Below the pieces are notes generated by a model. The model made no database searches, was not told the origin of the DNA, and saw only the letters and a program-made list of their open reading frames with translations. From NCBI RefSeq assembly GCF_015709515.1, contig NZ_JADNQZ010000056.1:186001-250000 (forward strand): 64,000 bases of DNA. Direction: 5' to 3'. The position numbers were made by a program, and so were the translations under genes. Positions 48,656 through 61,093 of the stretch are shown here, piece by piece (within the stretch, counting starts at the first letter, position 1; every line of letters begins with the position of its first letter). Source of the stretch: Methylocystis sp. H62. GTDB taxonomy: Bacteria > Pseudomonadota > Alphaproteobacteria > Rhizobiales > Beijerinckiaceae.

Positions 48656-49918
48656 TCAGATTCGCGCGCCGGAAACGGCGCCCCAGGTCGTCCGCCAGCG
48701 CGTCTTCACGAAGATCAAACCGACGAGACCGAGCAGCGCAAGGAAACCGAAGAAGACGAATCCGGCGGTGAAGCCGCCCGTCGCTCCTTTGGAGTAGGCG
48801 AGCGTCTTGGCGAGAAAAAATCCGCCAAACCCACCCGCGGCGCCGACGAGGCCGGTCATCGCGCCGATCTCCCGGCGGAACCGCTGCGGCAGCAACTGAA
48901 ACACCGCGCCATTGCCCATGCCGAGCGATAACACGCCGACGGAGAACAGCGCCACCGCTGCAAAGGCGACGGGCGGCAGCTGCATCAGACCCCATCCCGC
49001 AACGCCTTTCGCCGGGGCCGGTCCCACCGGCAGAAAGGCGACGGCGAAATAGCAGGCGGAAACGAGAACGAACAGGAAGCACAACGTCTTCACGCCGCCG
49101 ATGCGGTCCGCGATATAGCCGCCGACGGGCCTGAAACCCGAACCGAAGGCGACGATCAGCGCGACCATGAGGCCCGCGGCGACTCCCGTGGCGTGATACT
49201 GCGTCGTGAAATAGAGCGGAAGCGCCGAAGCAAGACCAACGAAGCCGCCGAAGGTGATGAAGTAGAAAAACATGAACCAGCGGCTGTCGGAGTCCGCGAG
49301 CATCCTGCCGTAATCGGCAAGAGCAATCGTCGTTTTGCCGCCGGGCGCGTCCTTGGCGGCCAGCGAATAAATGAGCAGCACCAAAACCATCAGCGCGAGC
49401 AGAACGCCATAAACGGTCTGCCACCCGTAAGCCTCGGCGATCGACGGCGCAAAGAGCGTGTCGAGCACGACCCCCATATTGCCGGCCCCCGCGATGCCCA
49501 TCACCAGACCCTGATATTGCGGCGGATACCAGCGGCCCGCCTGCGGGAGGGCGACGGCGAAAGAGGCGCCGGCGAGCCCAAGGGACAGACCGAAAAGCGC
49601 GATGGCGATTGAACTACTCAGGCCAAAGACGCACACCAGAGATACGGCGAACATCACGATCGCCTGCGCGAGGATGCCCGTCATCTTGGGGCCGATCGCG
49701 TCGGCGAGGAGGCCGAGCGGAACCCGAAAGAAGGCGCCGCCGAGAACCGGAATCGCGACAAGCGAGAGTTTGTCCTCGACCGAAATCGGCATGTCTTTGG
49801 CGATGTAAATCATCAGCGGGCCGAGCGAGACCCAGGCCATGAAGCTGATATCAAAGTAGAGGAAGGCCGCAAGCAGCGTCGGCCAATGACCAGCCTTTTT
49901 AAAATCCGACAGTTTCAT
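48656..49918 (-). CDS. narK: Nitrate/nitrite transporter, MFS NarK/NasA type
   Basis: A 420-residue 12-helix major-facilitator protein of the NNP family. Signature regions are GGAFFRVPLGLLADAIGPK, the nitrate signature GIAGAGNMGVVLDTLFAPSI and FGSGFRPVGGYIADRIGG with its conserved Arg. It should bring nitrate into the cell for NasA. Its ATG overlaps the end of nasA by 20 bases, so it belongs to the operon. Confidence 0.93.
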   Translation of the reverse strand: MKLSDFKKAGHWPTLLAAFLYFDISFMAWVSLGPLMIYIAKDMPISVEDKLSLVAIPVLGGAFFRVPLGLLADAIGPKMTGILAQAIVMFAVSLVCVFGLSSSIAIALFGLSLGLAGASFAVALPQAGRWYPPQYQGLVMGIAGAGNMGVVLDTLFAPSIAEAYGWQTVYGVLLALMVLVLLIYSLAAKDAPGGKTTIALADYGRMLADSDSRWFMFFYFITFGGFVGLASALPLYFTTQYHATGVAAGLMVALIVAFGSGFRPVGGYIADRIGGVKTLCFLFVLVSACYFAVAFLPVGPAPAKGVAGWGLMQLPPVAFAAVALFSVGVLSLGMGNGAVFQLLPQRFRREIGAMTGLVGAAGGFGGFFLAKTLAYSKGATGGFTAGFVFFGFLALLGLVGLIFVKTRWRTTWGAVSGARI

Positions 49919-52679
49919 CAGATGCTCCTTCTTTCATGCTTGTTGGGTTCTCTCGCGCCGAATCCATCGCAGACTCGGCGGCGAGAGAAATCTTGATGAG
50001 ACGTTGAATTTCCGGTTGGCAGGAGCCGCAATTGGAGCCTGCGCGCGTGGCCTTCCCGACGTCGAGCGCCGAGCGGCAGCCTTGGTGGATTGCGGCTTCG
50101 ATCTGCTTTTGACCGACGCTAAAGCATGAACAGACAAGCGGTCCGTCATCCGCCAGTTGTCGACCCGAGCGACCGGACAATAGCGACAGCCGCTCTGACT
50201 GATCGAGACGATCGCGGGCGAAGAGTTCGAGCGCGAAATCCCAGGATTGCGCAAGGGGAGACAAAGCCCAGATGAGCGTTGCGCGGTCCTCAAGGAAGGC
50301 GGCGCCGGAAAAGAGGCTCTTCGTCTCATCGATCAAATGGATGACGTCTTCGCTCGCCGCAGCGGCGTGGATTATTTCCGTCCACTCGTCGTCTGCGAGA
50401 TCGCCAGCGACGCGATAGCCATAGCCATTGGCGACGGCGACGCGCGCCCACCATACGCCCTGGGGCAACGTGATCGGGCTGCGGGAGAGAAGAAAGCCCT
50501 GGCGCGCGAAGCGCATAGGCGTGACGATGGCGGGCGTCGCCTTAGATTCCGGCTGTCCCGAGAAAGGATCGACACAGGGCGCGACAAGTGCGCCAATGCG
50601 CGCATCCGCGGCGGTTTCATCGGTCCAGTGAATCGGCGCGAAAATATGCCCGGCGGGCTGACGGTCCGTCACCACGGCGCGCAAGACGCAGCTTCCATAG
50701 GGCGTCGCGACGCGCGCAAATCCGCCGTCCTCGACTCCAAGATCCTTCGCGTCTGATGGATTGATCTCGACGAAGGGTTCCGGAAGATGCCTTGCAAGGC
50801 GGGGACTCATGCCGCTGCGCGTCATGGTGTGCCACTGATCGCGGATGCGACCGGTGTTGAGCCGAAGCGGGAAGTCCCGCGTCAATTCAGTCGCCAAGGT
50901 CGGCGTCGCCAACGCGATGAATTTCGCTCGTCCGCCTCGACAGAAAAAGCCGCCGTCGGCGAAGAGGCGCGCGCGGCCCTTGTTCTTGTCATCAGGGACC
51001 GGCCATTGCGTCGGCGCGAGCGCGTCATATTCGGCGTCGCTCAGCCGCGCGAGACCGCCAATGTCGAACCCGCGCGTTCCGTTATTCTCGAAAGCCGAAA
51101 GCGCGGCGTGTTCGCGAAACACGTCTGCGGCCGCTCCGTAGTCGAAGCCTGCAAAGCCCATGCGTCGCGCGACATCGGCGAAAATCGCCCAGTCGGCGCG
51201 AGTCTCTCCCGGCGGAGGCAAAAACGCGCGCTGACGCGAAATGCGGCGCTCCGAATTCGTCACCGTGCCGCTCTTTTCGCCCCACGCCTGCGCCGGCAGG
51301 AGCAAATGCGCGCCGCTATTGATCGTGTCGTTCGACGTCACATTGTCGGAGACGATGAAGAGTTCGAGCTTGCTAAGAGCGGCGCGCGCGGCATTGGCGT
51401 TTGGAAGCGACGCCGCCGGATTGGTGCCGACGACCCACAGCGCCTTGATGTCGCCGCGCGCGATGGCGTCGAACATCTGCACCGCCTTCAATCCGTCACG
51501 CGTCGCCATGCGCGGCGCGTTCCAGAAGCGACCGACGCGGTCGATGTTTGCGGGCTCGAAGCCCATATGGGCGGCGAGGCTGTTGGCGAGTCCGCCGACT
51601 TCTCGCCCGCCCATCGCATTGGGCTGGCCGGTCAGGGAGAAGGGAGACGCGCCGGACTTGCCGACGCGGCCCGTCGCGAGATGGCAATTGATGATGGCGT
51701 TGACTTTGTCCGTTCCCTGCGCCGACTGATTGACGCCCTGCGAGAAGCAAGTGACCGTGCGCGGCGTCTGCGCGAACCATGCGAAGAAAGACGCGATGTC
51801 AACCTCGCGAAGTCCGGTGGACGCTGCAGTCGCTTCGATCGAGGGCGCAAGGGTCCGCGCCACTTTCAGGGCGCCTTCCAGGCCCGCAGTATGACGACGG
51901 ACGAAATCATCGTCGAAAGCGCCGACCTTTGTGAGATGGACAAACAAGCCGCAAAACAGCGCCTGATCCGCGCCCGGCGCGATCTGCAGAAAGAGGTCAG
52001 CGCTTTCGGCCGTCGGCGTGCGGCGCGTGTCGATGACGACGAGCTTGGCGCCGCGCTCCTCCTTGTTGCGCATGATGCGCTGGAAGAGGACAGGATGGCA
52101 CCAGGCGGCGTTGGAGCCGACGAGCACGATGAGGTCGGCTTCGTCCAGATCCTCGTAACAGCCCGGCACGACGTCGGCGCCGAAGGCGCGCTTGTGGCCC
52201 GCGACCGTGGAGGCCATGCACAGGCGCGAATTGGTGTCGACATTGGCCGAGCCGATAAAGCCCTTCATCAGCTTGTTGGCGACATAATAATCCTCGGTCA
52301 GCAGCTGACCCGAGAGATAAACCGCGACGGCGTCAGGACCGTGCTCGTCGACGATGCGACGAAATCCGTCTGCGGCTTGATCCAGCGCGGCATCCCAGCT
52401 TACGCGCGCGAAGGCGCCGTCAGACTGACGGCGCATCGGATGGAGAAGGCGCCCCTCCAGCCCAAGCGTTTCGCCGAGAGCCGAGCCCTTAGAACAGAGC
52501 CGGCCGAAATTTGCAGGATGGGCCGGATCGCCAATCACGTCGGCGCCATTTGCGGACGCGAGCACGCCGCAGCCGACGCCGCAGTAAGGACAGGTCGAGC
52601 GCGTCGTCGTCGCCTGAACAGGCGCTATGCTGTTGTGCGAATTTTCAAGCGGCGCGGGCGCCAGGACTTCATCGAGCAT
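49899..52679 (-). CDS. nasA: Assimilatory nitrate reductase, catalytic subunit
   Basis: A 926-residue molybdopterin oxidoreductase that reduces nitrate to nitrite in the cytoplasm. The N-terminal 4Fe-4S site has C30, C33, C37 (STCPYCGVGCGV) and C62 (RLCSKGS). The molybdenum domains include CFSQGVNQSAQGTDKVNAII and GTNPAASLPNANAA. The C-terminal 60 residues form a BFD-type 2Fe-2S domain: LVCSCFSVGQKQIE and SNCGSCQPEIQRL, a feature of NasA forms that take electrons from a flavoprotein. The ATG at 52679 was chosen over a TTG at 52691 that would overlap the upstream gene. No signal peptide, as expected for an assimilatory enzyme. Confidence 0.96.
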   Translation of the reverse strand: MLDEVLAPAPLENSHNSIAPVQATTTRSTCPYCGVGCGVLASANGADVIGDPAHPANFGRLCSKGSALGETLGLEGRLLHPMRRQSDGAFARVSWDAALDQAADGFRRIVDEHGPDAVAVYLSGQLLTEDYYVANKLMKGFIGSANVDTNSRLCMASTVAGHKRAFGADVVPGCYEDLDEADLIVLVGSNAAWCHPVLFQRIMRNKEERGAKLVVIDTRRTPTAESADLFLQIAPGADQALFCGLFVHLTKVGAFDDDFVRRHTAGLEGALKVARTLAPSIEATAASTGLREVDIASFFAWFAQTPRTVTCFSQGVNQSAQGTDKVNAIINCHLATGRVGKSGASPFSLTGQPNAMGGREVGGLANSLAAHMGFEPANIDRVGRFWNAPRMATRDGLKAVQMFDAIARGDIKALWVVGTNPAASLPNANAARAALSKLELFIVSDNVTSNDTINSGAHLLLPAQAWGEKSGTVTNSERRISRQRAFLPPPGETRADWAIFADVARRMGFAGFDYGAAADVFREHAALSAFENNGTRGFDIGGLARLSDAEYDALAPTQWPVPDDKNKGRARLFADGGFFCRGGRAKFIALATPTLATELTRDFPLRLNTGRIRDQWHTMTRSGMSPRLARHLPEPFVEINPSDAKDLGVEDGGFARVATPYGSCVLRAVVTDRQPAGHIFAPIHWTDETAADARIGALVAPCVDPFSGQPESKATPAIVTPMRFARQGFLLSRSPITLPQGVWWARVAVANGYGYRVAGDLADDEWTEIIHAAAASEDVIHLIDETKSLFSGAAFLEDRATLIWALSPLAQSWDFALELFARDRLDQSERLSLLSGRSGRQLADDGPLVCSCFSVGQKQIEAAIHQGCRSALDVGKATRAGSNCGSCQPEIQRLIKISLAAESAMDSARENPTSMKEGASDETVGF

Positions 52680-52687
52680 GAGCGGCC

Positions 52688-54277
52688 TCAATAGACGTCC
52701 TGTTGATAGCGCCCGCTCTTCTTGAGCTGGGCGACGAAGGCGACCGCTTCATCGGCGCTGCGGGCGCCGAATTCGGCGATAACGTCGACAAGCGCACGTT
52801 CAACATCCTTGGCCATGCGCTGCGCATCGCCGCAGACGTAAAAATGCGCGCCTTCCGCGAGCCACGCCCATAGTTCACGGCCGGACTGGCGCATGCGGTC
52901 CTGCACATAGAATTTTTCCGCGCCATCACGCGACCAGGCGAGCGACAGACGTGTGAGCAGGCCCGTCGCCTTCATCGCTTCGAATTCGTCGGCATAGAAG
53001 AAATCGCAGGCCGAACGCTGGTGTCCAAAGAAGAGCCAGTTCCTGCCGGGCGCGCGGGTCGCCGCGCGCTCCTGCAAAAAGGCGCGAAACGGCGCGACGC
53101 CGGTGCCAGGTCCGATCATGATGATCGGCGTCGCCGGATCGTCCGGCAGCGCGAAACCATGCGCCGGCTGCACATAGACCGGAAGACTGTCGCCCGGCGC
53201 GATGCGCTCGGCCAGAAAGGTCGAGGCGACGCCAAGACGCCTGCGCTTGCCGACGATATATCGAACCGCGTCGACAGTCAGCGACAGGCGCCCCGGCGCC
53301 GCCTTGGGGGATGAGGAAATCGAATAGAGGCGCGGCTGCAGCGGCTCCAGCGCTTCGACAAAGGCTTCCGGGTGGGGCCGCGCGCTGGAAAATTTCTGCA
53401 GCACGGCGAGCACGTCGAGCGTTGCGGCGTCGCCGTCGGGGTCCTTGCCTTGCGCCAGCAAACGCGCTTTCTCGCGCTGCGCGCCGCCGGTGATGAAGGA
53501 GATGAGCTCGTAAAGCGCATCAGGCGCCGGAGCGAGAGAGACGTCGCTCAGCAATGCTTCGCGCAGGGTCTTGTCGCGCACCGGCGTTACATGCGAGGCG
53601 CCGAGCATGGCGATGATCTGGTCGACGAGGCCGAGATCATTTTTGGCAAACACGCCGAAACTGTCGCCGACTTTGTAGCTGATTTCGCTGGCGCCGAGAT
53701 CGAACTCGACGTGCCAAGTGTCCTTTTCCGAGCCTTCCTTGTTCAGCCGACGGCGAGAAGCGAACGTCGCGCGCACCGGATTGTCGCGCGAGCAGCCGGG
53801 CGCCGCAGCGACGTCGGGTTCGACCTCGGCGACGATGGGCGGTGCCGGCGAAGGCTGATCCAGCTCCGCCGCAAGCGCCTTCACCATGCGCGCCGTGTCC
53901 TTGCCGCCGGGCGCGCAGAGATTGAGGCGAACCTCCTTGCGCGCCGCGAGCGCGTCCGCATAGGTCTCGCAAATGTAGCCGCACTGGCCGCAGTCCTGTT
54001 GCGCCATGGCCGCCATCAGGCGGCGACGCAGCGGACGGCCTTGGGCAAGCTGCATGCGCGATTCGAGCGCCAGCGTCTGGTCATGCCACGGCGCTGCGCC
54101 ATCGTCGCTATCGGCGCCGGCCATCACGGCGGCGTTTGCCTCTGGCGAGAGCGGCGTGATCGAGCTGTCATCGGGCGCGGCGAAGCCGGCAAAGAAGCCG
54201 CTGAGCCAGGCGCGCTGCTCCTGCGTGAAAGGCGCATTCGGCGGAATGAAAAACGGCGGGGAGGACTGATGAGTCAC
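52688..54277 (-). CDS. CysJ-like NADPH flavoprotein reductase with Fe-S motif in place of flavodoxin
   Basis: A 529-residue diflavin-reductase-like protein. The C-terminal two thirds match sulfite reductase alpha: FAD site RLYSISSSP and GVASTFLAER, NADPH site IMIGPGTGVAPFRAFLQER, FFGHQRSACDFFY, and the end RYQQDVY. There is no FMN flavodoxin domain. Instead residues 96-121 hold four Cys (C96, C99, C103 in DCGQCGYICETYADAL, then C121), like the RnfB/CO-dehydrogenase-type 4Fe-4S domain. It lies between nirA and nasA, overlapping nirA by four bases, so it most likely passes NADPH electrons to NirA and/or NasA rather than to sulfite reductase. The N-terminus (TQEQRAWLSGFFAGF) resembles that of the neighbouring NirA. 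Confidence 0.88.
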   Translation of the reverse strand: MTHQSSPPFFIPPNAPFTQEQRAWLSGFFAGFAAPDDSSITPLSPEANAAVMAGADSDDGAAPWHDQTLALESRMQLAQGRPLRRRLMAAMAQQDCGQCGYICETYADALAARKEVRLNLCAPGGKDTARMVKALAAELDQPSPAPPIVAEVEPDVAAAPGCSRDNPVRATFASRRRLNKEGSEKDTWHVEFDLGASEISYKVGDSFGVFAKNDLGLVDQIIAMLGASHVTPVRDKTLREALLSDVSLAPAPDALYELISFITGGAQREKARLLAQGKDPDGDAATLDVLAVLQKFSSARPHPEAFVEALEPLQPRLYSISSSPKAAPGRLSLTVDAVRYIVGKRRRLGVASTFLAERIAPGDSLPVYVQPAHGFALPDDPATPIIMIGPGTGVAPFRAFLQERAATRAPGRNWLFFGHQRSACDFFYADEFEAMKATGLLTRLSLAWSRDGAEKFYVQDRMRQSGRELWAWLAEGAHFYVCGDAQRMAKDVERALVDVIAEFGARSADEAVAFVAQLKKSGRYQQDVY

Positions 54278-56028
54278 GCCATGCTCTCCTCACTAGCAAG
54301 ACGGCGCAGCGTTTCGATGTCGTGGCGGCGCGCAAAGGCGACGAAGGTTTCGTCCGCGTTCGCCCGGTTTTTTCGATAGGCGCGCAGAATTTTCGCCACC
54401 ATTTCCGGCGCCTCTTCCGCCTTCACATTTTGATAAAACTCGAACGCAATGCCGGCGTCTTCGGCAAAGCCGCCACCAACCAGAATGTGATAGCCCTCGA
54501 CCGTGTCGCCGTCGTCATTCACCGGCACGCGCGCGCCGATCAGTCCGATGTCGCCGATGTAATGCTGCGCGCATGAATGATGGCAGCCAGTGAGATGTAT
54601 GTTGATCGGCGTGTCGATCGGCGCCGCCGCCTCGCAATAGGCCGCGATTTCCTCTGCGTGCCGCTTGGTGTCAGCCGCGGCGAAACGGCAGCCGAAATTG
54701 CCCGTGCAGGCGACGAGTCCGGCGCGAATCGGCGAGGTTTGCGTCGAAAGGCCGAGCGCCTCGATCATCGAGGCAGCTTCGGCAATCTGTGCGTCGCTAA
54801 CGCCCGTGATCAGCACATTCTGCCAGACCGTGAGACGCAGGCCGCCGTCGCCGAATTGGCGCGCGATCTCGGCGAGACCGCGCGCCTGCTCGGGGGTAAA
54901 ACGTCCGACCGGCAACATTACGCCGATCCAATTGAAGCCCGGCTGCTTTTGCGGATGCACGCCGATATGCGCGGCGCGATCCTGACGCGGGCGGACGGCG
55001 ATCGCCGCCGCGTCGATGCGGAGCAGCTTGCGGCCCAGCTTCTCTTCGACGGCGGCTAAAAATTTGTCGAAGCCCCAGGCGTCGAGCACATATTTGAGCC
55101 GCGCCTTGGCGCGATTGGTGCGATCGCCATGTTCGATGAAGACTCGCAGAATCTTGTCGGCGACCTCCACCGCCTCATCCGGCGAAACGATCACGCCGGT
55201 GTCGCGCGCAAAATCCTTGTGACCGGTGATGCCGCCAAGCGCGAGGCGGAAATAAACGCCCGGCGCGACGCCATGCTGGTCGTTCACGACAACGGCCTGA
55301 AAGCCGATGTCATTGGTGTCTTCCAGCGCGCCGATCAATCCCGCGCCGTCAAAGGCGATGTTGAACTTGCGCGGCAGTCCGGAGAGCGAGCGATCGTTGA
55401 GGATGTGATGATGCATCGCGCGCGCATAGGGGCGCGTGTCGATGAGTTCCTGCGGATCGACGCCGGCGGTCGGCGTGCCGGTGATGTTGCGGATATTGTC
55501 GGCGCCAGAGCCCTTGCTCCACAGCCCCAGATCCTGAATCGCCTCCAAAATATTCGTGGCGTTTTTTGGCGCGATTTCGCGGATCTGGATATTGGCGCGC
55601 GTCGTCACATGCAGATAGCCGCCGCCATAATTTTCCGCGAGATCCGCAAGCCCGGCGAACTGCCAATGCGTGAGCGCGCCATTGGGAATGCGCAGCCGGC
55701 ACATATAGGAATTCTGCGCCGGCGCGACATAGAAGAGTCCATAGTAGCGCCAACGGAAATTGTCGGCGGGCTTTGGCGGCGCATTCTCCTTGGCTTGAGC
55801 GACGAGGCGCGGCCATGCGTCGAACGGATGCTCCTCGCGCTTCCATTTTTCCTGATCGGTCAGCTTGCCGCCGGCCGCGGTGACGCGGTCCTGCGCGGAT
55901 AAATGCGCGGCGTCGGGTCCCATCGGCTGCGTTTGCGAAGGCGGGGCCTTTTGTCCGCTGCGCGCAGAAAAGCCGGCTGCAAATCCTTCGAGATAGCGCT
56001 TCTGGTCGAGCGTGAAATCGACGGACAT
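54274..56028 (-). CDS. nirA: Ferredoxin-type nitrite reductase
   Basis: A 584-residue sirohaem/4Fe-4S nitrite reductase, which reduces nitrite to ammonium. The Fe-S/sirohaem Cys are C441 and C447 (ACTGNFGCRFA) and C482 and C486 (TGCHHSCAQHYIGDIG). The sirohaem-side motif TTRANIQIRE is at residues 142-151. It resembles NirA rather than CysI by the DTKRHA and HHSCAQH segments, but electron-donor type cannot be fixed by eye. The neighbours (flavoprotein reductase, FAD oxidoreductase, NasA) set its role in nitrate assimilation. Confidence 0.92.
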   Translation of the reverse strand: MSVDFTLDQKRYLEGFAAGFSARSGQKAPPSQTQPMGPDAAHLSAQDRVTAAGGKLTDQEKWKREEHPFDAWPRLVAQAKENAPPKPADNFRWRYYGLFYVAPAQNSYMCRLRIPNGALTHWQFAGLADLAENYGGGYLHVTTRANIQIREIAPKNATNILEAIQDLGLWSKGSGADNIRNITGTPTAGVDPQELIDTRPYARAMHHHILNDRSLSGLPRKFNIAFDGAGLIGALEDTNDIGFQAVVVNDQHGVAPGVYFRLALGGITGHKDFARDTGVIVSPDEAVEVADKILRVFIEHGDRTNRAKARLKYVLDAWGFDKFLAAVEEKLGRKLLRIDAAAIAVRPRQDRAAHIGVHPQKQPGFNWIGVMLPVGRFTPEQARGLAEIARQFGDGGLRLTVWQNVLITGVSDAQIAEAASMIEALGLSTQTSPIRAGLVACTGNFGCRFAAADTKRHAEEIAAYCEAAAPIDTPINIHLTGCHHSCAQHYIGDIGLIGARVPVNDDGDTVEGYHILVGGGFAEDAGIAFEFYQNVKAEEAPEMVAKILRAYRKNRANADETFVAFARRHDIETLRRLASEESMA

Positions 56029-56029
56029 T

Positions 56030-57262
56030 TCAGGCCGCCTCTTGCATCGGCGGGCCGAACATCAATTCGTCGCGCATCGACGAAATATTCGCGCCGGTAC
56101 GGATGAGATCGAGAAGATCGGCCGCGCCGTTCGTATCTCCGATCAGGATCGCGCCGACGAGCCTGTCGTCGCGCACGACAAGCTTGCGATAAATTCCCAT
56201 GCGCGGGTCCTTGCAGACAATGCGGCGTGCATCTGCGTCGCCAAGATAATCGCCGGCTGAGAAAACGCGCACGCCGGAGACTTTCAGATTGGTGGAGACG
56301 ACGCTGCCGCCATAGGACGCGTCTTGTCCGGCGAGGCGCATGGCGAGCACGCGGCCCTGCTCATAGGCCGGCTCGACGAGCCCGTAACAGACGCCGCGAT
56401 GTTCAGCGCATTCGCCGATGGCGAAAACGCCTGGCGCGCTTGTCTTCAAGCCGTCGTCGACGATGACGCCTCGCCCGACGTCAAGAGCGGCCTGTCGCGC
56501 AAGGTCGGCGTTCGGCCGAATGCCGATGGCGAAAATCACGGCGTCGGCTGGAACCGTTCGACCGTCGGCGAACTCTACATTCTCGACTCGGCCCGAACCG
56601 CAGATGCGCGCCGTGTTGGCGTTGAGAAGCACGCGCACGCCTTTTTCTTCAACGAGGCGGCGCAGGATATCGGCGCCGGCCGCATCGAGTTGGCGCTCCA
56701 TCAGCCGATCCATGACATGGGCGAGCGTCACGTCGACGCCGCGTCGCGCAAGGCCATAAGCCGCCTCCAGTCCGAGAAGGCCGCCGCCGATGACGAGCGC
56801 GCGAGCGCCTTTGCCTTCCAGCCGGGACAGCGCCTCGACGTCTTGCACGTCGCGAAACGTATGAACGCCCGGAAGATCGGCGCCTTCGATCGGCAGCCTT
56901 GCCGCGCGCGACCCGGTGGCGAGCACGACTTTCGAATAGTCGACGCTCTCGCCATTATCGAGAAGAAGACGCCGCGCCGCGGCGTTGATCTTTATGACCT
57001 TGCGGCCGCTCAGAACCTCAACGCCGGCGACGCGCCACCATTGTGCCGGCTTGAGTTCGATGTCATCGACCGACAATTCCCCGGCGAGCACCGAAGACAG
57101 CAGCACGCGATTATAGGCAAGCCGCGGTTCCTCTCCGATCACGAGAATGTCGTATCGACCCGGCGCCCGCTTCGTCAGCTCCTCGACGAAACGCGTGGCG
57201 GCCATGCCGGCGCCGACGACGACAAGCTTCTCGCGACTTTTACAATCCTGCAATCCAGTCAT
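56030..57262 (-). CDS. NirB-N-terminal-like FAD/NAD(P)H oxidoreductase
   Basis: A 410-residue pyridine nucleotide-disulfide-type oxidoreductase equal to the N-terminal part of NirB or the NasB/NasC electron-transfer subunit. FAD site VVVGAGMAATRFVEEL, then PRLAYNRVLLSSVLAGE, NAD(P) site ALVIGGGLLGLEAAYGLARR and the FAD end motif GVFAIGECAEHRGVCYGLV. The sirohaem and BFD domains of full NirB are missing. It is the first gene of the nitrate operon, with a 328-base leader upstream that carries a sigma-54-type promoter and two ANTAR-type stem-loops. One base separates it from nirA. It is likely one of two routes of electrons to NasA. Confidence 0.9.
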   Translation of the reverse strand: MTGLQDCKSREKLVVVGAGMAATRFVEELTKRAPGRYDILVIGEEPRLAYNRVLLSSVLAGELSVDDIELKPAQWWRVAGVEVLSGRKVIKINAAARRLLLDNGESVDYSKVVLATGSRAARLPIEGADLPGVHTFRDVQDVEALSRLEGKGARALVIGGGLLGLEAAYGLARRGVDVTLAHVMDRLMERQLDAAGADILRRLVEEKGVRVLLNANTARICGSGRVENVEFADGRTVPADAVIFAIGIRPNADLARQAALDVGRGVIVDDGLKTSAPGVFAIGECAEHRGVCYGLVEPAYEQGRVLAMRLAGQDASYGGSVVSTNLKVSGVRVFSAGDYLGDADARRIVCKDPRMGIYRKLVVRDDRLVGAILIGDTNGAADLLDLIRTGANISSMRDELMFGPPMQEAA

Positions 57263-57300
57263 GTGTCGACTCTGCTGAACGGCCGAACGGTCCGGTCACA

Positions 57301-57342
57301 GGTCGCTTTGCCTTACGGGTGATGAGAACGGGCAAGACGACC
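57301..57342 (-). promoter_or_regulatory. Late leader hairpin upstream of the nitrate operon
   Basis: On the minus strand GGTCGTCTTGCC pairs with GGCAAAGCGACC over 18 bases of loop, 11 of 12 positions matching. No U-tract follows. Its 5' arm (GGUCGUC) is also complementary to GACGACC inside the first ANTAR-type stem-loop at 57413-57428, so the two could exchange partners. Confidence 0.5.
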
Positions 57343-57379
57343 AAAGCGCGACGCAAATTGCGAAATCGCTTCTGTGACG

Positions 57380-57428
57380 GAGCCCGACTTTGGGCTCGTT
57401 CCGGCGGACCGGCGGTCGTCGTTGACCA
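57380..57428 (-). promoter_or_regulatory. ANTAR-type double stem-loop, leader of the nitrate operon
   Basis: In RNA sense: first stem-loop UGGUC-AACGAC-GACCG (57428-57413), a 15-base linker, second stem-loop GAGCCC-AAAGUC-GGGCUC (57397-57380). Both loops have six bases with A at position 1 and G at position 4, the consensus bound by ANTAR proteins such as NasT, NasR and EutV. The first stem lies at the predicted 5' end of the transcript. Confidence 0.78.
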
Positions 57429-57438
57429 ATGAGGGGAG

Positions 57439-57454
57439 TGCACATTTCGGGCCA
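57439..57454 (-). promoter_or_regulatory. Sigma-54-type promoter of the nitrate operon
   Basis: On the minus strand TGGCCCGAAATGTGCA, against the consensus TGGCAC-N5-TTGCA, with the invariant GG and GC at the required spacing. Predicted start of transcription near 57428. The perfect inverted repeat TTAGGCGC-GAG-GCGCCTAA at 57540-57558 lies about 112-130 bases upstream of that point, where an enhancer-binding activator would sit, though it is not an NtrC consensus and could instead end the nasS transcript. Confidence 0.7.
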
Positions 57455-57589
57455 GAGGCGCCGGCGTGGTTTTTCCCAAGGAATGCGGGCGTTTGGCGCT
57501 GACCAACGGAAGCAGGCGGCATTTTGCGGCGCCGAATGCTTAGGCGCGAGGCGCCTAACGGCTGGCGCTTTTGAACAGAGGTTCAGCGC

Positions 57590-58738
57590 TCACAGGCGCT
57601 GTCCGATAGCGAAGTCGGCGAGATAAGCTTCATAGCTGCGGTCGTCGAACGACGGTCCCGCAAAGGCCCCGATTTCGCGCTGAACATGCGCGCGATCAAT
57701 CGCGGCGTCGTAGAGGTCCGGGCGCAGGACGCTCTTCGCGCGATCGGCCATCTCTGGCGAATGGCGCGTCTGCCCCCAGCGCAGCATCTGCGCATAGATC
57801 CATTCGGTTTGCTGTGGATCCGGCCGCATGGCGCCGTCTCGTCCAATGATGAGGTAGTTGGCGTCGCTTCGTTCGTCGCGCGCCTTAACGCGCAAATGGC
57901 CCGTGAGCACGCGGCCGATGATCTCGGCGTCGACGCCGACATATTCCGGCCGCGAGAGAATTTGCGAAACCTCGCCCAGGTTTTGCGGCGCGTCAACGAA
58001 GGCGGCCCCCCTGTCGAGCGCGCGGATCAGCGCCGCGACAAGATCAGGATTATCGTTGGCGAAGCTCTCGCGCAGCGCGAGGACTTTCTCCGGCGCGCAC
58101 GCAAAAATCTCGCAGCCGAAATGCAGAATGACCCCAACGCCGGCGTCGACCGCGACAGAACTCCAGGGCGCGCCGACGCAAAAGCCGTCGAGCTGACCGC
58201 GCGTCAGATTTTCCACCATATAGGGCGGCGGCAGAACGATCAGCCGCAGGTCTTCGTCGGGATCGACGCCGCCTTCCGCCATCCAGTAGCGCAGCTGATA
58301 ATTGTGCATGGAAAAAGGAAAGGTCATGCCGAAGGTCAGAGGCTCACGTCCCTCGGCCCTTCGCCGCGCGACGAGCTTGGCGAGCGCGCGCGCGGTTTGC
58401 GCCGGATGCGCGACCTCGCCTTCCGCTGCGAGTTCGGCATAAAGCGCTGTGGACACCGCGATCGCATTGCCGTTCATCGCAAGATTCATCGGCGCGACAA
58501 GCGGGACTCGCACATGGCCCAGTCCGAGCGTGGAAGCGACCGCCATTGGCGCCAGAAGATGCGCCGCATCGAAACGGCCGATGGCGAGCTTGTCTCTAAT
58601 ATTCGCCCAGGACGCTTCGCGGATCAGTTCGACGTCGAGACCTTCCGCCTTGGCGAAGCCCTTATGTGCGGCGATCAACAGCGCAGCGGCGTCGACAAGC
58701 GGAATGAAGCCGATTTTCACATGCGCTTCGCCGGTCAT
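57590..58738 (-). CDS. nasS: Nitrate sensor NasS (NrtA/CmpA-like, cytosolic)
   Basis: A 382-residue periplasmic-binding-protein fold of the NrtA/CmpA/NasF family without a signal peptide: it begins directly with VKIGFIPLVDAAALLIAAHK. Ligand-side segments include HLLAPMAVASTLGLG, FSMHNYQLRYWMAEGGVDPD and FCVGAPWSSVAVDAGVGVIL. Lack of export and the four-base overlap with nasT identify it as NasS, the protein that holds NasT inactive until nitrate binds. No ABC permease or ATPase is nearby, which also argues against a transport role. Confidence 0.93.
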   Translation of the reverse strand: MTGEAHVKIGFIPLVDAAALLIAAHKGFAKAEGLDVELIREASWANIRDKLAIGRFDAAHLLAPMAVASTLGLGHVRVPLVAPMNLAMNGNAIAVSTALYAELAAEGEVAHPAQTARALAKLVARRRAEGREPLTFGMTFPFSMHNYQLRYWMAEGGVDPDEDLRLIVLPPPYMVENLTRGQLDGFCVGAPWSSVAVDAGVGVILHFGCEIFACAPEKVLALRESFANDNPDLVAALIRALDRGAAFVDAPQNLGEVSQILSRPEYVGVDAEIIGRVLTGHLRVKARDERSDANYLIIGRDGAMRPDPQQTEWIYAQMLRWGQTRHSPEMADRAKSVLRPDLYDAAIDRAHVQREIGAFAGPSFDDRSYEAYLADFAIGQRL

Positions 58739-59307
58739 TTGAACATCTCCGCCGCCGTGATGACCGAGCGTGCAATTTCGATGATCTTTTTGTTTTCGCG
58801 CATGGCGACGCCGCGCATCATCTTATAGGCGTCCTCTTCGGAAAGCTGCTTCGCCTTCATCAATATGCCTTTGGCGCGTTCGATCGTCTTGCGCTCCTCG
58901 AGATCGGATTTGGCCTGTTCGAGTTCATCCCGCAGCTTCGAGAAGGCATGGAACCGCGATACGCACAGATCGAGGATCGATTTGATGCGCTCCTTTTTCA
59001 ACCCATCGACGATATAGGCCGAGACCCCAGCGTCGACCGAGGCCTGAATCGACGCCGTGTCGCTCTGATCGACAAACATGGCGATCGGCCGACGCACCGC
59101 GCGACTGACCTGAAACATTTGCTCAAGCGTATCGCGCGAAGGGTTCTCGAGATCAATCAGGATCACGTCGGGGTCGCTGGCGTAGATGTGCTTCAGCAGA
59201 TTGTGCATCTCGCTGATGCGCTCGACCTGCGTGAAGCCGGCTTCGCGCAGTCCCTCCTCGAGGATCAGCGAGCGAATGGGGCTTTCGTCGACAATGACGA
59301 TCTTCAA
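58735..59307 (-). CDS. nasT: ANTAR-domain antiterminator NasT
   Basis: A 190-residue response-regulator-like protein. The receiver-like domain starts KIVIVDESPIRSLILEEGLR, with DPDVILIDLENPSRDTLEQM. The C-terminal ANTAR domain (about residues 130-190) reads LEERKTIERAKGILMKAKQL then SEEDAYKMMRGVAMRENKKI. It binds double stem-loops in leader RNA and prevents termination when NasS is loaded with nitrate. I chose the TTG at 59307, which gives the family start; a GTG at 59400 would add 31 residues of no resemblance. NasS follows with a four-base overlap. Confidence 0.93.
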   Translation of the reverse strand: MKIVIVDESPIRSLILEEGLREAGFTQVERISEMHNLLKHIYASDPDVILIDLENPSRDTLEQMFQVSRAVRRPIAMFVDQSDTASIQASVDAGVSAYIVDGLKKERIKSILDLCVSRFHAFSKLRDELEQAKSDLEERKTIERAKGILMKAKQLSEEDAYKMMRGVAMRENKKIIEIARSVITAAEMFK

Positions 59308-59401
59308 TTCACGGCGTCCAGTGAGCGCATGTAGGGGTCGCGCCAGCGGCGGCGCATCGCCAGTCTCCGCGATCCGGCCGCCGGGCCGCGACCAACGCAC
59401 G

Positions 59402-60649
59402 TTATATCTTGAAGCGCAACGACATGCCCGCCTGCCAGTTCTTCATGATCTGCGGACCGTTGAGATTCTGATAGACGGGCAAACCGGCCTCGACCGCGAC
59501 CGTCGCATTGTCATAGCCGATAAATTTGCCGCTGATCGTCGCGCCGCCGAAGAGTTCGACCCGCTGCCCGCCGTAGAAGGCCGGATTGGCCGGCACGGCG
59601 GGGCCGCGGATTTCGGGATCGAAGCCGCGGATCGGACCCTGCGTCGAACCGCTCACGCGAAAGGTGGTGGTGAGTCCGGGCGTCCAGGTGTAGCCGCCCC
59701 AGGCGTTGAATTCATGCAACTCGCCCCATCGGTAGCCCCCGGAAGGAGTGGGACCGAACGGGAAGCGCAGGCGATATTCGAGCAGGTAGTCCCAGGAATA
59801 GCCCAGTGAATTTGGGGCCAGAGGGAAGCGCCCGCGATAGCCGAGGCCCCATGACCACGGTCCCAGATAGCCTGCATAGACGATGCCCGGCAGGAAATCG
59901 AATGTGCCCGTGCCTGGCTGCATGCCATAGAATCCTCGGATGTTGCGGCGGGTTCCGTCGGGCAGGAGAAAGTCCTTGAACGTGGCCGTGTAGCTGCCGG
60001 CGGGGAAGGAGACGCCAAGCGAGAGCTGGATGCGATGGACGTCGTCCTGATAGATGCGATAGACGCCCGACAACGTGACGTCGGCAAGGCTCGTCGTTCC
60101 CGGCAAACTCCTGCCGAGCGGCAAGATCCCCGACGCGCCCTTGAAGGTGAGCGCGTTGAGATTTTTCTCGATCATGCCGGCCGTGAGGATAACGGCGAAA
60201 TCTTTCGTGACGCCGTAGCTCAGTCCGGCAATTTGCGTCGCGACCGCAATGTTTTGCGGGATGATGCGCACAGTCTGCTTGGGATTGAGAAAGAACGGCA
60301 CCGTCGTGACGATATATTCGTTGGAGACCGTGCGCGTTCCCATTTTGATGCCTGACAGATTGGCGAACACCGGCGTAATGGAGAAAACAAGTTTGCCAGC
60401 GGCCGGCATATCGGCGCCGAACACCCCCATGGGCGCCGGCGGCGGAGCGGGAGGCGGCACAGGCGGCGCGGCCGGCGCGAGCGATGGCGGCGGCGCTTGA
60501 ACTTGTATCGCAGTCGCCTCGGACGGCGCGTGTTTGCGGGGCGCGGCGTTCGCGTCGGTCGCGAGGAGCGCGGCCGCCACGACTATCAATCTTGCGCCGC
60601 GCCATGGCGGCCGCTGGCGCATCGATCGCTGGGACTGTGCTCTCTTCAT
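59402..60649 (-). CDS. Predicted outer-membrane channel-like protein in the nasTS operon
   Basis: A 415-residue exported protein. Signal region RLIVVAAALLATDANAAPRK (residues about 20-40), a Pro/Ala linker (PPVPPPAPPPAP), then a 330-residue beta-rich domain resembling the phenol_MetA_deg/transporter-type outer-membrane barrels: VYRIYQDDVHRIQLSLGVSF, WSWGLGYRGRFPLAPNSLGY, and an end in Phe-Lys-Ile. The ATG at 60649 follows GATGAGG. It is the first gene after the ANTAR-type leader at 60693-60768 and ends 94 bases before nasT, so it is probably induced with NasST and may pass nitrate or another anion through the outer membrane; that role is inferred. Confidence 0.68.
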   Translation of the reverse strand: MKRAQSQRSMRQRPPWRGARLIVVAAALLATDANAAPRKHAPSEATAIQVQAPPPSLAPAAPPVPPPAPPPAPMGVFGADMPAAGKLVFSITPVFANLSGIKMGTRTVSNEYIVTTVPFFLNPKQTVRIIPQNIAVATQIAGLSYGVTKDFAVILTAGMIEKNLNALTFKGASGILPLGRSLPGTTSLADVTLSGVYRIYQDDVHRIQLSLGVSFPAGSYTATFKDFLLPDGTRRNIRGFYGMQPGTGTFDFLPGIVYAGYLGPWSWGLGYRGRFPLAPNSLGYSWDYLLEYRLRFPFGPTPSGGYRWGELHEFNAWGGYTWTPGLTTTFRVSGSTQGPIRGFDPEIRGPAVPANPAFYGGQRVELFGGATISGKFIGYDNATVAVEAGLPVYQNLNGPQIMKNWQAGMSLRFKI

Positions 60650-60692
60650 CGCGAACCTCATCTGCATCTCGCCTGCGCGCGCCCCAGAAACG

Positions 60693-60742
60693 AAAAAAGC
60701 CGCTGCCTGAACGCCTGCGAGGCAGACGTTCAGGACAGCGGC
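60693..60742 (-). terminator. Strong leader terminator of the nasTS operon
   Basis: On the minus strand GCCGCTG-T-CCTGAACG pairs with CGTTCAGG-CAGCGGC (one bulged base), with a further CTGC/GCAG inside, followed by TTTTTT. It ends 43 bases before the ATG at 60649, so it must be overcome for the operon to be expressed. Confidence 0.93.
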
Positions 60743-60768
60743 AATGCTGGGGGACCCTTCTTTGGGCC
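60736..60768 (-). promoter_or_regulatory. ANTAR-type double stem-loop, leader of the nasTS operon
   Basis: In RNA sense: first stem-loop GGCCC-AAAGAA-GGGUC (60768-60753), a three-base linker, second stem-loop CAGC-AUUGCC-GCUG (60749-60736). Both six-base loops have A at position 1 and G at position 4. The second stem-loop shares seven bases (60736-60742) with the 5' arm of the terminator, so the two structures cannot coexist. This is the arrangement known for EutV, NasR and NasT targets. Confidence 0.87.
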
Positions 60769-60804
60769 GGGTGACGTCGCAAGCGACGCCCTCGCGCCAA
60801 GGGA

Positions 60805-60820
60805 TGCAAGCGCGGCGCCA
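60805..60820 (-). promoter_or_regulatory. Sigma-54-type promoter of the nasTS operon
   Basis: On the minus strand TGGCGCCGCGCTTGCA fits TGGCAC-N5-TTGCA, with GG and GC at the fixed spacing. Predicted start near 60794, which puts the first ANTAR-type stem-loop about 26 bases into the transcript. Confidence 0.72.
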
Positions 60821-61093
60821 CCTACAGCGAGGCTTTATGGCGCGCGTCGCTGAGCCGCTCTGGACGCCAGGCTTTTGCAGGGGTTCGCGCTTGCACGCGC
60901 GCGCTTGTTAAAACATTCACGAGGACTTATTCGCGTCGCGCGCTTGCTTGCGAGGCGGCAACGAACGCCGAAAAAATTTGCATTCTGCCGTCATCGACGA
61001 CAGCCGCTTTGTCCTTGTAGCCGCGTTTGCCGTGATGACGCGGCCTTCTACATGTCTTCCGTCCGACGTCCCTGTTTGGACAGGGAGGACGCA

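Follow-up and report, generated by a model that had tools for sequence, protein, structure and literature searches.

The control of genes through a leader RNA that is recognised by an ANTAR protein is an established type of switch, and the closest described cases involve the same NasT/NasS pair and hairpins in the leaders of nitrate genes; statements followed by a PMC number rest on excerpts of the papers concerned. In Paracoccus denitrificans, NasT binds the leader RNA of nasA and nitrate dissociates NasS-NasT (PMC3795266), and in B. diazoefficiens NasT acts on the nosR leader (PMC6759348). The latter species also has a predicted NasT hairpin before narK-bjgb-flp, and these genes are up in a nasT mutant (PMC6759348); therefore, a predicted NasT hairpin need not mean activation. 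In ANTAR leaders, stabilisation of the second hairpin (P2) leaves the terminator shorter and separated from its U-tract, according to an excerpt of Stewart and van Tilbeurgh (PMC3369936), which includes the nitrate-controlled nasF leader of Klebsiella oxytoca (PMC3369936). The EutV/EutW leaders of Enterococcus faecalis (eutP, eutG, eutS, eutA) likewise contain two hexaloops with A1 and G4, a P2 which overlaps the terminator and a constrained linker. It was proposed that EutV binds P1 and then P2 (PMC8934654), and induction in E. faecalis falls when A1 or G4 of one or the other loop is altered (PMC3369931). Linkers of 2-25 nt were accepted in a list of actinobacterial ANTAR RNAs (PMC8164766). 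In Pseudomonas aeruginosa, AmiR is a pseudo-receiver ANTAR protein held by the ligand-binding protein AmiC, and the operon name amiECBRS (PMC3369936) places the regulator gene in an operon behind its own leader.

In the 64-kb stretch of DNA analysed here (the window), a leader of this type precedes the genes for an outer-membrane-like protein (OMP), NasT and NasS themselves, whereas the leaders of P. denitrificans and B. diazoefficiens precede structural genes. The locus resembles the nasF case in its proposed shortening of the terminator by P2, but NasR senses nitrate itself via its NIT domain and without NasS, while a NasS-NasT pair is present here; EutV differs by being activated by phosphorylation, as opposed to a NasT held by a nitrate-binding partner, and controls different genes. 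AmiC-AmiR, the precedent for placing a regulator gene behind the leader on which its product acts, senses amides instead of nitrate, and its operon has no outer-membrane gene in front, whereas the operon described here starts with one behind a sigma-54-type promoter motif. Within the open-access literature searched, the position before its own regulator and an outer-membrane-like gene, behind such a promoter, is new. The initial annotation had read positions 60693-60768 as an ANTAR riboregulator in front of the nasT operon, and the sequence comparisons support this reading. We assign a probability of about 0.88 to the more complete version, in which this element is a NasT (ANTAR) antitermination leader of a sigma-54-dependent OMP-nasT-nasS operon that is gated by nitrate and subject to feedback. 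The features of the locus are, in the order of the minus strand:

60805..60820, minus strand: sigma-54-type promoter motif TGGCGCCGCGCTTGCA (GG-N10-GC), the only TGGC-N7-TTGCA match in the window
60773..60790, minus strand: extra hairpin P0, GGCGUCG-CUUG-CGACGUC, just 5' of P1, recognised from the fold and the letters
60753..60768, minus strand: hexaloop hairpin P1, GGCCC-AAAGAA-GGGUC (A1, G4), with one G-U pair
60736..60749, minus strand: hexaloop hairpin P2, CAGC-AUUGCC-GCUG (A1, G4), the candidate antiterminator, from letters, fold and covariation
60693..60742, minus strand: predicted intrinsic terminator, its 5' end sharing 7 bases with the 3' end of P2
59402..60667, minus strand: OMP gene, predicted as such in the initial annotation, the first gene behind the leader
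58735..59400, minus strand: nasT, coding for a receiver-like and an ANTAR domain (Pfam ANTAR, 9.4e-19)
57590..58738, minus strand: nasS, coding for a nitrate-binding-type protein (NMT1_2, 2.8e-74)
49899..57262, minus strand: nas structural genes behind a second leader (leader 2, see below), from family matches, namely nirB-like (56030), nirA-family (54274), sulfite-reductase-flavoprotein-like (52688) and nitrate-reductase-like molybdoenzyme (49899) genes

The window belongs to a 4.54-Mb genome in 59 contigs. Its nearest named relatives by NasT are Methylocystis rosea SV97 (96%) and other Methylocystis; the host is a Methylocystis species near M. rosea, and no experiments on this species were found in the open-access literature searched. 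Reading along the minus strand, the promoter motif, P0, P1, P2 and the terminator with its U6 run are followed by the OMP gene, nasT and nasS, and, after a 327-nt gap that contains leader 2, by the nirB-like gene and further nas structural genes on the same strand. A receiver-like plus ANTAR protein thus lies beside an NrtA-like protein, as in a NasS-NasT system: the relatives of NasT with solved structures include the 'putative antiterminator' 1s8n, and those of NasS in the PDB are NrtA and nitrate-transport ATP-binding chains. The search of the genome turned up no ANTAR protein other than NasT. Its listed reading frame extends about 30 residues ahead of the start of homology in the alignment, and the true start probably lies some 30 codons further in. 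For the OMP, the N-terminus looks like a signal peptide by eye, the Pfam and NCBIfam searches gave no usable family, and a further search returned only chance-level matches (best E 0.13). The AlphaFold model, based on an alignment of nine sequences, was unusable with a mean pLDDT of 30.6, so that a barrel is a prediction only. Candidate starts of the OMP gene are ATG 60649 and the in-frame ATG 60661 and 60667, the last of which is missing in the relatives L106, L109 and L110. Many genomes of the genus contain several OMP paralogues. Directly 3' of nasS, a hairpin TTAGGCGC-CTC-GCGCCTAA is conserved in Methylocystis (57540-57558, minus strand), with no T-run behind it.

The promoter motif TGGC-N7-TTGCA occurs once in the 64-kb window, with a chance mean of 0.56. 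Its first base lies 52 nt before P1, and from the usual spacing the transcript would start near 60794. Of 32 leaders, a count in which some genomes appear twice, 25 have the strict pattern at -46 to -53 relative to P1; for the remaining seven, the respective genomes show looser forms at -32 to -50. RpoN is encoded in the genome. A search with the NtrC consensus of P. denitrificans gave no match near either leader, and no sigma-70-like site was found in 59250-60950, which carries little weight, since only 0.2 are expected by chance.

A script confirmed the letters and coordinates given in the initial annotation for P1 and P2 with their A1/G4 loops, as well as the three bases between them (CCC) and the seven bases which P2 shares with the 5' arm of a terminator ending in U6. 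The latter arm is GCCGCUG (60742-60736), its counterpart is CAGCGGC (60705-60699), and the U6 run occupies 60698-60693; the terminator stem consists of 7 bp, a bulged U and another 13 bp. The reported distance of 43 bases to the first gene holds with ATG 60649, and the nearest possible start codon is 25 nt past the U-tract. The sequence features of an ANTAR antitermination leader of the type of Ramesh et al. 2012 are present, namely two stem-loops with six-base loops, conserved A1 and G4 in both loops, a short linker, an overlap of P2 with a terminator with U-tract, and an ANTAR protein in the genome.

The 76-nt RNA is predicted to fold with a minimum free energy of -46.6 kcal/mol (z -6.8, no equally stable sequence among 200 shuffles). 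The 43-nt stretch of P1 and P2 alone is close to its shuffles (z -1.35; 20 of 200 fold equally well), and the stability of the whole element is therefore due to the terminator. The predicted energies are -6.7 for P1, -3.7 for P2 and -39.1 kcal/mol for the terminator hairpin. If P1 and P2 are forced to form together, the energy is -34.3 instead of the -46.6 kcal/mol of P1 with the terminator, and the upper 13-bp stem persists at a distance of seven bases from the U-tract, in agreement with the published picture of ANTAR leaders as given in the excerpt of PMC3369936. Because the terminator fold is better by 12.3 kcal/mol, the switch would have to work kinetically and with strong help from the protein. 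A simple terminator scanner did not report this terminator, and the bulged stem is the probable reason.

Only this place in the window has both a pair of A1/G4 hexaloops within 15 nt and a terminator stem that overlaps the second of them, and 200 simulated 64-kb strands from a second-order Markov control contained two such full patterns (stem of at least 7 bp). Chance alone readily produces pairs of A1/G4 hairpins when no terminator is required, with about 1.2 per simulated strand, and the two strands of the window together contain eight pairs, including that of the OMP-nasT leader. Rfam gave no match in the window at gathering thresholds, and at loose thresholds only two chance-level miRNA matches in 60600-61000; the Rfam search suggested in the initial annotation therefore does not decide the matter. 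Two genomes of the genus have an A1/G4 hexaloop also in the hairpin 5' of P1 (AGAGAU in L036:3062 and AGGGAU in L198:764, oriented coordinates), so that three consecutive hairpins of this kind precede the terminator; the corresponding P0 loop in the window is CUUG.

For the conservation analysis, we aligned 33 of 50 scanned elements. The rows were selected by a scan in which stems of at least four pairs, A1/G4 and a terminator were mandatory, and the percentage of paired cells is raised by this selection. We left out near-duplicates (L035, L058, L074, L076, L089, L111), wrong or second pairings (L036:3059, L047:3261, L102, which is leader 2, and L193 and L194 with misplaced terminators) and divergent rows, mostly with longer linkers (L046, L051, L053, L064, L068, L069). 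With P1 and P2 formed, 98.3% of the cells are paired, four pairs are changed on both sides, and the covariation score is 0.265, compared to 0.161 in shuffles (reached by 0/500) and at most 0.080 in slid controls. With P1 and the terminator formed, 93.3% are paired, eight pairs are changed on both sides (within the terminator, five of the ten counted pairs), and the score is 0.305, compared to 0.186 in shuffles (0/500) and at most 0.145 in slid controls. One of the five measures, the number of further pair types, did not exceed the shuffles (reached by 391/500 for P1 and P2, and by 63/500 for P1 and the terminator). Both mutually exclusive folds are thus supported by compensatory changes in the alignment above shuffles and slid controls. 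Loss of the two stems in relatives, which the initial annotation had named as evidence against itself, was not observed.

A covariance model built from the 33 elements (R1), which does not demand fixed loop bases, was used to find further copies; many of its matches are also in its own alignment and match by construction. Among 30 distinct full-length rows, not counting two partial ones on the opposite strand, A1 is present in 29 and G4 in all 30 of the P1 loops, and both are present in all 30 P2 loops, so that the expected constancy of A1 and G4 in relatives is borne out almost without exception. The single exception is a leader after nasS in L197 with G at position 1 of the P1 loop. In Methylosinus sp. 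Sm6 (L113), the P2 stem contains a mismatch.

A less biased and independent point comes from loci which were picked by protein alone. The OMP is present in 34 of 39 genomes of the genus, and nasT comes next in 26 of 30 retrieved loci. Enough upstream sequence was available for 24 of these (all except L081 and L083), and all 24, the window's own included, carry an R1 element in front of the OMP gene, whereas none of the four OMP loci without adjacent nasT does (L084, L091, L095, L097). At E ≤0.01, R1 matches in 33 of the 39 genomes and in 28 of the 30 nearly complete ones. The leader and a partial OMP match lie about 2 kb apart in L111:3104-6049, as though an insertion had occurred between the leader and the OMP gene or within the gene.

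We also located the element among 120 nasT loci, made up of 40 of the 42 strong family places outside the window's own genome (G026 and G094 were left out) and 80 named loci, with a few genomes counted twice. R1 matches 57 of them (E ≤0.01) and none of the other 63, which are mostly from Bradyrhizobium. Not counting one partial opposite-strand match (L036), the element lies directly 3' of nasS in 45 loci and upstream of nasT in 13, with L032 and L114 included in both counts; two cases are located elsewhere. In each of the 13 upstream loci, the OMP gene (partial in L111) stands between leader and nasT, and all of them belong to the window's genus (Methylocystis or close MAGs) or to Methylosinus sp. 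Sm6 (L113). This indicates that the leader is the common nas leader of the group, and that its place before OMP-nasT-nasS is a local arrangement. In six loci (L193-L197 and L200), an R1 leader before OMP-nasT is accompanied by another one after nasS, and both operons would be NasT targets there.

Within the window's own genome, R1 finds three matches at E ≤1.3e-13, and the next one follows at 0.019. Copy 2 lies before a second OMP gene (contig C37, 86% identical), and copy 3 precedes transporter genes, of which the first codes for a substrate-binding protein (NMT1_2) and the next ones for permease, ATPase and MFS proteins. The second OMP gene lies beside nasT remnants only and still has the element in front; the remnants of nasT and a broken nasS are found between this gene and the ABC-transporter leader.

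C37:17948-21289 and beyond: second OMP gene with leader (L199 / L296), from R1 matches and gene calls

Because only one ANTAR protein was found in the genome, NasT is the candidate regulator of all three leaders, and it probably acts in trans on the two further copies. The two copies, the sigma-54-type promoter and leader 2 are features absent from the initial annotation.

These observations are consistent with the following mechanism. Shortage of nitrogen would start transcription from near 60794. Without nitrate, NasS would hold NasT, the RNA would adopt P1 and the full terminator, and most transcripts would end at the U6 run. Nitrate or nitrite would make NasS release NasT, which would bind the A1/G4 hexaloops of P1 and P2. 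With P2 held, the terminator would lose its lowest seven base pairs, and its 13-bp remainder would be parted from the U-tract, allowing read-through. Since nasT and nasS lie behind the switch, NasT would boost its own supply, and the NasS produced with it would temper this positive feedback; nitrate thus probably turns up the production of NasT itself. The co-transcription of OMP and nasT which this presupposes is suggested by the 1-nt gap in the window.

The gap is longer in other Methylocystis (310 nt in L033), which makes an additional nasT promoter possible. The leader could accordingly be a true NasT target that serves mainly the OMP gene, with nasT and nasS also expressed from an internal or post-OMP promoter and no real feedback. 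We regard this as rather unlikely, although it would account for the fact that NasT is needed before any antitermination by NasT can occur, and nasTS of P. denitrificans forms a unit of its own whose expression was seen on all nitrogen sources tested, according to the cited part of PMC5424462. It is opposed by the start of nasT only 1 nt past the OMP stop in the window and by the retention of the leader before the OMP-nasT pair in all 24 loci with upstream sequence; the missing sigma-70-like site says little on this question.

Two other explanations dispense with antitermination by NasT. An exact and conserved overlap of P2 with a U-tract terminator, as in classical antiterminators, and a nearest possible start codon 25 nt past the U-tract make it highly improbable that the NasT-bound site is a sponge or a translational element, even though EutV also binds hexaloops singly, a small RNA can sequester it (PMC8934654) and translational ANTAR RNAs have been described in Actinobacteria (PMC8164766, both in excerpts). 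An ordinary attenuator or terminator of an upstream transcript, on which no protein acts and in which the A1/G4 hairpins are coincidental, is barely credible: the strong hairpin with U6 would end transcription by itself, chance yields about one hairpin pair without terminator in a 64-kb strand, and P1 with P2 alone folds no better than shuffles, but the covariation in both exclusive folds, the conserved loops and the position near nas genes behind a conserved sigma-54-type motif argue against it.

If the reading as a NasT antitermination leader is correct, NasT stands behind its own nitrate-gated switch in methane-oxidising bacteria, in a positive-feedback loop with two gates, nitrogen shortage (sigma-54) and nitrate (NasT). 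It would also tie an outer-membrane-like protein to the use of nitrate, since both OMP copies found in the genome carry the switch and the second one shares a cluster with switch-bearing ABC-transporter genes. The 33 aligned leaders, with both folds covarying, provide a covariance model for NasT targets, of which Rfam 15 detected none here.

The nas structural genes behind nasS are preceded by leader 2, which we consider a more novel lead than the OMP-nasT leader. The gap between nasS and nirB is strongly conserved in Methylocystis and contains the following features:

57262-57454, minus strand: leader 2 region before the nirB-like gene, from scan, conservation and model R2
57439..57454, minus strand: sigma-54-type promoter motif TGGCCCGAAATGTGCA, the only match of its pattern in the window (chance mean 0.35)
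57414..57427, minus strand: putative hairpin P1', GGUC-AACGAC-GACC (A1, G4), adjoining the inferred transcript start
57401..57412, minus strand: linker hairpin CCGG-UCCG-CCGG, from letters and alignment
57380..57397, minus strand: putative hairpin P2', GAGCCC-AAAGUC-GGGCUC (A1, G4), with compensatory changes in two pairs
57336..57342, minus strand: strand a', GGUCGUC, complementary to 57414-57420 (P1' from G4 of the loop onward plus the 3' arm)

Position 1 of the P2' loop is A in the window and G in L110, L111 and L036, by eye also in L244 and L248, and G4 is kept in the relatives where it was read. A covariance model of 12 rows (R2), for the first of which the P1' letters and the promoter were used as selection criteria, so that their invariance proves little, matched 21 of 199 genomes of the family at E ≤1e-5, including 17 from three genera with scores of at least 42 bits. 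In the order, 39 of 249 genomes matched at 0.001, and we kept 30 loci. Five of these, the window included, adjoin nas-like genes, three of the five being weaker (28.5-34.8 bits) and from two other families. The other 25 were not taken as real, with no nas-like gene nearby, and L247 looks like coding sequence by eye. In 385 genomes of the class, R2 found the window's own match and four weak ones lacking the P1' letters. These letters occur near the centre of 19 of the 28 leader-2 loci read. A loose sigma-54-type motif lies at -28/-29 from the GTCA of P1' in all 19 readable loci, of which 17 precede nirB-like and two NasS/NrtA-like genes.

The core of leader 2 exceeds its shuffles in cells paired, cells changed on both sides and covariation score (0/500 each), and does not in changed pairs (303/500) or pair types (460/500). 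The complementarity between a' and P1' gave a summed score of 322 over 18 representatives, which are not independent of each other, compared to a mean of 233 and a maximum of 266 in 1000 shuffles. Taken singly, six of the 18 are unremarkable, with at least 98 of 1000 shuffles reaching them (L245, L246, L288-L291), and the distant copy L248 has the compensatory form GAUGACC/GGUCAUC. The single-sequence fold is somewhat more stable than shuffles (z -2.2; 7 of 200 as stable), and the best fold pairs a' elsewhere.

A U-tract terminator overlapping P2', as expected of a classical ANTAR antitermination leader, was not found for leader 2 of the window by scan, and no U-run lies behind a stem in 57262-57380. 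In L186 of M. rosea, from the same genome as L102, the scan gives a 5-bp stem before TTTT. The conservation, the promoter spacing and the a:a' complementarity across genera argue against a classical leader that has simply decayed. We tentatively propose, at somewhat below even odds, that a second class of NasT RNA, one without intrinsic terminator and with competition between P1' and a long-range helix, controls the nas genes located behind nasS. A strand some 80-115 nt downstream would pair with the loop and 3' arm of P1', so that P1 and not P2 would be contested, and the choice made by NasT between P1' and this helix might act on Rho-dependent termination, translation or mRNA stability. ANTAR RNAs without terminator are known (excerpts of PMC3369931 and PMC8164766), so leader 2 would be a variant of these; competition at P1 is not described in the open-access literature searched. 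If the proposal is correct, one NasT works two RNA switches, one for its own operon and one for nitrite/nitrate reduction, and leader 2 with its missing U-tract offers a way to ask what ANTAR proteins do without an intrinsic terminator.

Two single loci deserve mention. Leader 2 of L189 contains GTCACAA/TTGTGAC instead of GTCACAG/CTGTGAC, and the two changes may compensate each other in a long-range stem behind P2', while the consensus fold pairs both bases elsewhere. In L106:8972-9171 (identical to L190), leader 2 occurs twice in tandem with N between the copies, which may be an assembly artefact.
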